DNA of 42,062 nt from an uncultured Ignavibacterium sp. (GTDB lineage Bacteria; Bacteroidota; Ignavibacteria; Ignavibacteriales; Ignavibacteriaceae): assembly GCA_937942875.1 (NCBI GenBank), contig CALEBT010000055.1, positions 1 through 42,062 on the forward strand. The letters run 5' to 3'. Made by a program: the position numbers and the translations under genes. How positions within the stretch are numbered: the stretch's first letter is position 1; each line of letters opens with the position of its first letter. Below, piece by piece: positions 21,566 to 22,289 of the stretch. Under the pieces are notes generated by a model that saw only the letters and a program-made list of their open reading frames with translations, was not told the DNA's origin and ran no database searches.

Positions 21566-21622
21566 TTGATACGATTTGCAAGTATCCGAATCAAAAAACA
21601 AAAAAGGAGAAAAGAACGATGA
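21566..21622 (+). CDS. Possible 18-residue leader peptide
   Basis: A very strong AGGAGG site at 21546-21551 has no ordinary gene behind it. The only frame it could serve starts with TTG at 21566, 14 bases away (long spacing), and reads MIRFASIRIKKQKRRKER before a TGA that overlaps the ATG of the 82-residue gene (ATGA). A short hairpin GATAC/GTATC (21568-21572 with 21582-21586) covers its beginning. It could couple translation of the next gene; weak evidence. Confidence 0.2.
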   Translation: MIRFASIRIKKQKRRKER

Positions 21623-21867
21623 AAGAAATCAAAGCAAAATTAGAAAATCCTTTATCAGAACTTATTAGCGATGATATTTATGAACTTCTAAATGCTCATG
21701 GTTTAATTGATGAAAAGGCTGTTAGAGATTATCAGATACGTAAAAAATTCAAACAGTTACGTGCAAGTAAAATCAGTGCCGGAGATGCAATAGATGCAAT
21801 AAGGGAAGAATATCCATATTTGCAATTCGATACAATAAGAAAAATTGTATATCAAATTAGCAAATAA
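21619..21867 (+). CDS. Small conserved-looking helical protein of unknown function
   Basis: 82 residues, no signal peptide or membrane segment, strongly helical and charged. The C-terminal half (QIRKKFKQLRASKISAGDAIDAIREEYPYLQFDTIRKIVYQ) has the spacing of a small helix-turn-helix, but I cannot name a family. It has a good AGGAGA ribosome-binding site 8 bases before ATG. It lies alone between two promoter/hairpin/terminator units (21372-21530 and 21878-21990), an arrangement more typical of an autoregulated or RNA-controlled gene than of an operon member. A DNA- or RNA-binding role is a guess. Confidence 0.7.
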   Translation: MKEIKAKLENPLSELISDDIYELLNAHGLIDEKAVRDYQIRKKFKQLRASKISAGDAIDAIREEYPYLQFDTIRKIVYQISK

Positions 21868-21877
21868 TCGTTAGTAG

Positions 21878-21906
21878 TTGACAAATACAAATTAATGTTT
21901 TATTTT
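21878..21906 (+). promoter_or_regulatory. Strong sigma-70-type promoter of unit B
   Basis: Perfect -35 box TTGACA at 21878-21883, optimal 17-base spacer, -10 TATTTT at 21901-21906. The predicted start, about 21912, falls on the first base pairs of the hairpin described next. It begins 11 bases after the stop of the 82-residue gene. Confidence 0.6.
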
Positions 21907-21910
21907 TCAA

Positions 21911-21990
21911 CTGACTTTTTCAAAGGGTTCTCCCCTGCCTTTTGAAAGCTAATAAGTCAGGCCCGGTGTCTCCCCGTCACCGGGTTTTTA
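21911..21990 (+). ncRNA. Candidate small RNA with two C-rich anti-Shine-Dalgarno loops, unit B
   Basis: About 80 bases from the predicted start to the end of the T run. Hairpin 1: CTGACTT (21911-21917) plus TTTCAAAGG (21918-21926) pairs with CCTTTTGAAA (21938-21947) and AAGTCAG (21954-21960), leaving a 1-base and a 6-base bulge. Hairpin 2 (21962-21984) abuts it and is the terminator. Both loops contain the same heptamer TCTCCCC (21929-21935 and 21969-21975), complementary to GGGGAGA and so to Shine-Dalgarno cores such as GGAGA. This resembles the general design of sRNAs with repeated C-rich anti-SD loops known in other phyla. It could instead be an attenuator leader for the membrane protein/dprA genes that begin 21 bases later. 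GGG at 21925-21927 could also pair with the loop C run and hide it. Confidence 0.5.
21962..21990 (+). terminator. Strong rho-independent terminator
   Basis: Stem CCCGGTG (21962-21968) and CACCGGG (21978-21984), 9-base loop, then TTTTT. The most GC-rich stem in the window, unmistakable in form. Confidence 0.85.
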
Positions 21991-22010: not shown

Positions 22011-22289
22011 ATGGCAAAAGTTGTAAAAAAATCAACCGCTAAAGTAGCAAAAAAGTTACCATCTCCTTTTTTTATTTATTGGGAAAAATCAAATTATTTA
22101 CTACTTATCTTGGGAATTATTCTCCTTATTTTAGGATTTTATGCAATGAGTATTGGTTCCTGGGATAGCACGGCTTCACTAGTAATTTCGCCTGTAATTC
22201 TTTTTATAGCTTACGTGTTGATTTTCCCTGTTGCAATTCTTTACAGAAAGAAATCGAAATCAGAGGATGAATTAAATAATACTCATTAA
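22011..22289 (+). CDS. Small membrane protein, DUF3098-like
   Basis: 92 residues: a Lys-rich N-terminus (MAKVVKKSTAKVAKK), then two hydrophobic helices at about 28-46 and 56-77 with the loop YAMSIGSWDSTAS between them, and a charged tail. The layout (basic start, NYLLLILGIILLILGF, short polar loop, second helix beginning with Ser-Pro) resembles DUF3098 proteins of Bacteroidota; this is by memory of the pattern, not a search. An AGAGG site stands 6 bases before ATG. It lies 21 bases after the terminator of unit B and 5 bases before dprA. Confidence 0.75.
   Translation: MAKVVKKSTAKVAKKLPSPFFIYWEKSNYLLLILGIILLILGFYAMSIGSWDSTASLVISPVILFIAYVLIFPVAILYRKKSKSEDELNNTH

Follow-up and report, generated by a model that had tools for sequence, protein, structure and literature searches.

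A putative small RNA family of Ignavibacteria carrying two C-rich hairpin loops

The window analysed here, a stretch of 42,062 nucleotides from an uncultured Ignavibacterium sp., contains a structured element located between two short genes, which encode a conserved protein of 82 residues and a membrane protein of 92 residues (Table 1). The same order, namely the 82-residue gene, the RNA, the membrane gene and then dprA, is observed in Ignavibacteriaceae. A domain search gave no family above cut-off for the 82-residue protein, which is mostly 70-97% identical across the order, and the membrane protein is named DUF3098-like after a match (E = 0.001) that is below the Pfam cut-off. The arrangement described in the original prediction, TTGACA, a 17-base spacer, TATTTT and then a bulged hairpin joined to a terminator hairpin, is exactly what the sequence contains. 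The RNA stretch folds at -38.9 kcal/mol against a mean of -20.0 for its dinucleotide shuffles (z = -5.74), and none of the 200 shuffles folded as low. Covariance models R1 and R2 both match the window at 21908-21990, and the limits of the RNA given in the table were deduced from the promoter for the 5' end and from the terminator for the 3' end. Judging from the sequence, this element almost certainly encodes a structured RNA and has a promoter and a terminator of its own.

Table 1. Features of the RNA locus in the window
Feature	Position	Strand	Basis or remark
82-residue conserved protein, upstream of the main copy	21619..21867	+	ORF and orthologues
Promoter of the RNA, -35 element TTGACA	21878..21883	+	sequence; kept before homologues of many families
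-10 element TATTTT	21901..21906	+	17-nt spacer from the -35; TATATT in most homologues
Small RNA, about 80 nt	21911..21989	+	fold, covariance models, covariation, strand counts
Hairpin 1	21911..21960	+	fold and covariation; asymmetric internal loop, bulged
Hairpin 1, outer stem CTGACTT/AAGTCAG	21911-21917/21954-21960	+	fold, alignment, covariation
Hairpin 1, inner stem TCAAAGGG/CCTTTTGA	21920-21927/21938-21945	+	fold, alignment, covariation
Loop 1 TTCTCCCCTG with invariant CUCCCC core (proposed seed A)	21928..21937	+	conservation
Hairpin 2, intrinsic terminator, stem CCCGGTG/CACCGGG	21962..21984	+	fold and covariation
Loop 2 TCTCCCCGT with C-run, terminator loop (proposed seed B)	21969..21977	+	conservation
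U-tract 3' of hairpin 2	21985-21989	+	sequence; TTTTTATTTT after the stem
92-residue DUF3098-like membrane protein	22011..22289	+	about 21 nt 3' of the U-tract; conserved neighbour of the main copy

Homologues of the RNA were detected by BLAST in 32 genomes among 97 relatives, with up to six copies in each. With a covariance model built from thirty aligned RNA sequences, they were found in 143 of the 391 genomes of the class Ignavibacteria, and the number of copies reached 8 per genome. In a phylum-wide draw, all strong matches of model R2 fell inside this class; those outside it had E values of 0.001-0.01 and either occurred in about the number expected by chance or looked like bare terminators. 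When 84,980 species genomes were scanned for the 20-mer surrounding loop 1, 64 stretches were returned, 62 of which belong to Ignavibacteria-type or 'Bacteroidetes' metagenome bins. The remaining two, from Martelella (L056) and Dialister (L088), are without the hairpins and were set aside as unrelated. Since homologues span the class, a chance origin of the hairpin pair is untenable. Dispersed copies are found together with tandem ones, which lie about 185-230 nt apart (L139:2845-3134; L067/L079; L048/L061). A mobile-element origin was also considered and rejected, as viral contigs, phages and plasmids gave no match. Two further loci could be diverged second members of the family, one in the window's own genome (L217:983-1059, corresponding to G000:C66:30382-30458) and one in genome G030 (L218:1027-1106); their hairpins display UUAACCCCCAG and UUCUCCCCCA in the loops, and a terminator hairpin comes next in both cases.

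The promoter is conserved along with the RNA. In most copies, TTGACA-17-TATATT is placed 2-3 nt upstream of the covariance-model start, and a promoter match at 10 or more of the 12 positions was obtained for 78 of 111 copies versus 2 of 110 control stretches. The DUF3098-like gene lies 3' of the RNA in 59 of the 108 copies with enough flank, in several families, and the gap to its start is mostly 17-57 nt (about 20-50 nt). Since this leaves almost no room for another promoter, the membrane gene probably needs read-through. To that extent, the alternative offered in the original prediction, a leader RNA for the downstream membrane gene, agrees with the data, but it fails for the other 49 copies, which stand alone without a DUF3098-like neighbour. 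For nineteen of these 49, the gene found within 150 nt is convergent, so that they cannot be leaders, and the RNA is probably an independent transcript and more than a leader. One could still suppose that the two hairpins are primarily the 5' untranslated region of the DUF3098-like gene, that regulated read-through of the terminator controls this gene and that the standalone copies are derived. The linkage and the lack of promoter room speak for such an attenuator, and the linkage extends to families devoid of the upstream 82-residue gene. On the other hand, the unlinked copies speak against it, the consensus fold shows no conserved alternative antiterminator pairing, and simple attenuation does not need invariant C-rich loops; we consider this explanation unlikely. 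A cis role would nevertheless also suit the main copy, which is tightly linked to a single gene.

Fifteen of the standalone copies (L032, L036, L044, L047, L048, L051, L053, L054, L061, L063, L067, L068, L076, L079 and L090) have in common the element GTTRTnnnTATCACA, located 61-62 nt upstream of the RNA and absent at the main copy. This element resembles a Crp/Fnr-type activator site and may be one. Several standalone copies (L032, L051, L054, L067, L079, L053 and L061) are situated beside amidohydrolase-like and xanthine dehydrogenase-like genes, and GGGG is present in the start regions of those amidohydrolase genes in four cases.

Covariation was assessed in 60 diverse copies, 58 of them distinct. 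Two-sided compensatory changes were observed in 23 of the 24 base pairs and amounted to 267 cells versus a shuffled mean of 78, in an alignment that was fitted to the covariance model and hence leans towards the structure. Covariation extends to all 14 pairs of hairpin 1. Paired cells made up 94.6% versus 75% after shuffling, and the signal was destroyed by sliding the partners one to three columns. An independent MAFFT alignment of closer sequences (A1) gave the same picture, with compensation in 13 pairs and 50 cells versus 14. Moreover, G-U cells outnumber A-C/C-A cells in the stem alignment by 126 to 31, which assigns the RNA to the + strand.

Among thirty aligned copies, the ten-base loop 1 is invariant and the stems are variable. 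In the larger set, CUCCCC is kept in loop 1 of 55 of the 58 distinct sequences and CCCC in the terminator loop of 51. The heptamer TCTCCCC, originally reported for both loops, is indeed present in both within the window, but as an exact shared sequence it is confined to the window's genus; the family-wide pattern is CUCCCC in loop 1 and a run of 4-6 C in loop 2. The general rule for this RNA family is two C-rich loops rather than an exact shared heptamer. Losses affect either loop: sister family f2, at the syntenic site flanked by the 82-residue and membrane genes, has a shortened loop 1 devoid of C's and a terminator loop that still reads CCCCCC, and some other families (L185, L224) retain loop 1 but have no C-run left in loop 2. 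At least one C-rich loop was retained in each lineage looked at, a pattern that interchangeable seeds would allow. The covariance check proposed with the original prediction therefore turned out in its favour, with covarying stems and conserved C-rich loops in place of the missing covariation and lost loops that had been named as counter-evidence. Taken with the conserved promoter and terminator, these features support what had been proposed, that is, a putative separately transcribed small RNA in an Ignavibacteria-type organism.

Repeated identical loops on variable stems would also fit the titration of a protein. The C-rich loops could dock an RRM, cold-shock or KH protein, for which the RNA would be a sponge or scaffold, and RRM proteins are encoded in 9 of the 12 genomes tested. 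However, RRM is absent from two RNA-bearing genomes (G014 and G198), no protein is known here to bind such loops, and the loops, like those of pairing RNAs, can be matched to complementary G-rich, SD-like sequence, which makes a protein-binding role quite improbable. A plain terminator preceded by a chance hairpin, with coincidental C-rich loops, would account for hairpin 2, which is an intrinsic terminator, but has next to no probability in view of the covariation throughout hairpin 1, a loop that is nearly invariant across families, the RNA's own conserved promoter and its duplication as a unit. Just as implausible is a functional opposite strand, where the reverse-complement loops contain GGGGA and their GGA would titrate CsrA: the promoter and U-tract lie on the + strand, and the G-U counts rule out such a CsrA-type RNA.

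No Rfam family reaches its threshold for the window's RNA in gathering or permissive scans, and ar14 and anti-hemB recur below threshold. The nearest architecture is that of the alphaproteobacterial ar14/cuckoo family (RF02344; NfeR1, CcsR1-4), in which an identical C-rich anti-SD loop tops each of several hairpins with variable stems, the final hairpin is the terminator, and copies are both tandem and dispersed (PMC10746234, PMC3927594, PMC10253847). The part of the ar14 definition cited in PMC4504443, two to four hairpins in which the stems vary and a C-rich loop is conserved, describes the RNA presented here equally well. The RF02344 model, however, scores 20.2 bits in the window and 35.0 bits in the best homologue, versus a gathering threshold of 58.8 bits. 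The loops also differ, being UUCUCCCCUG and (U)CCCC(C) here, whereas the motif CCUCCUCCC is present in each ar14 hairpin. The two families further belong to different phyla, and a DUF3098-like gene downstream of the RNA contrasts with a DUF1127 gene upstream of ar14. NfeR1 is Hfq-independent, and the pairing of NfeR1/ar14 with SD regions through C-rich loops has been studied experimentally (PMC10746234). A comparable organization is known for LhrC1-5 of Listeria, a multicopy sRNA in which the CUCCC motif occurs redundantly, in a hairpin loop, a linker and the terminator loop, and which was shown to block an SD region (PMC4132741). The RNA described here differs from LhrC in phylum and sequence and has two proposed seeds, neither of them in a linker; LhrC gave no Rfam match to the window's RNA even at E values up to 10.

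Other families share fewer traits. The anti-hemB RNA of Burkholderia (RF02837) likewise has a hairpin with a C-rich loop followed by a terminator, but the terminator loop of its model is without a C-run, and it scores 21.0 bits in the window and 32.5 bits in the best homologue versus a gathering threshold of 49.5. Chlorobi-1 (RF01696), from the same phylum, is also multicopy and tandem, with two hairpins and then a terminator; its big loop, in contrast, is constant and G-rich (AAUGGGGGA) and thereby the opposite of the C-rich loops described above. Chlorobi-1 RNAs with this G-rich loop were observed in other families of the phylum (L233-L239), none of the listed Rfam matches is in Ignavibacteria, and R2 matches Chlorobi-1 at 15.5 bits at most. 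Homology was rejected because of the G-rich loop, the other families and the weak R2 score. FopS of Bacteroides is a multicopy sRNA family of Bacteroidota that silences at translation starts in a host with RRM proteins (PMC11697453); FopS uses the 5' region R1' as seed instead of a pair of hairpin loops, and the two families are not recognisably related. In the open-access literature, we found no earlier paper on a defined small RNA family in Ignavibacteria. The family is apparently undescribed and new as a family, whereas its design is already known from Alphaproteobacteria and Listeria.

The targets suggested in the original prediction were not confirmed. GGAGA, the proposed pairing site, is found 5' of the 82-residue gene in only 8 of 51 orthologues. 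The 82-residue and membrane genes were rejected as conserved targets, since they have ordinary SDs with modest, non-conserved complementarity. A search of SD regions was no more successful: in 16 genomes, AGGGGAGA upstream of ATG was barely more frequent than controls (about 106 versus about 80-90), most of the matches examined were not real gene starts, and no conserved target emerged. When pairing of the loop with the translation starts of 268 genes was computed, starts bound better than upstream DNA; as a general anti-SD, however, the loop did not surpass permuted versions of itself, since 136 of 150 bound at least as well. The usual anti-SD at the 3' end of 16S was found by pattern search in 4 of 8 genomes. 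Hfq was not found in the 12 genomes examined.

The loop-redundancy pattern, the lack of Hfq in those 12 genomes and the same build of LhrC and NfeR1/ar14 lead us to favour, with moderate confidence, a new family of trans-acting sRNAs of Ignavibacteria with two redundant C-rich seeds, silencing in trans independently of Hfq. Gene silencing would plausibly proceed by pairing with SD or G-rich ribosome-binding sites. An RNA of about 80 nt would be made from its own housekeeping-type promoter, end at the intrinsic terminator and fold into two hairpins, the loops of which could serve as redundant seeds and initiate pairing with G-rich stretches around the translation starts of a set of mRNAs. As with Listeria LhrC or Sinorhizobium NfeR1, this pairing would keep ribosomes from binding and would not require Hfq. 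At the main copy, transcription of the DUF3098-like gene probably results from read-through, either past the RNA's terminator or from a transcript begun further upstream, and this copy may double as a leaky leader; duplicated copies elsewhere would have acquired their own upstream control element. A bolder version of this trans-acting scheme, which is conceivable but rather doubtful, is a class-wide Hfq-independent global regulator, whose ancestral RNA combined a leaky leader with a two-seed trans silencer and was amplified to as many as 8 differently controlled copies.

This is apparently the first small RNA family to be defined in Ignavibacteria, a group that yielded no Hfq in the genomes examined. 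The recurrence of redundant C-rich loops, drifting stems and a last loop in the terminator, in a family that is unrelated to the known ones or only very distantly related, suggests repeated origins of this design. It also provides a further lineage for testing how loop seeds select their targets.
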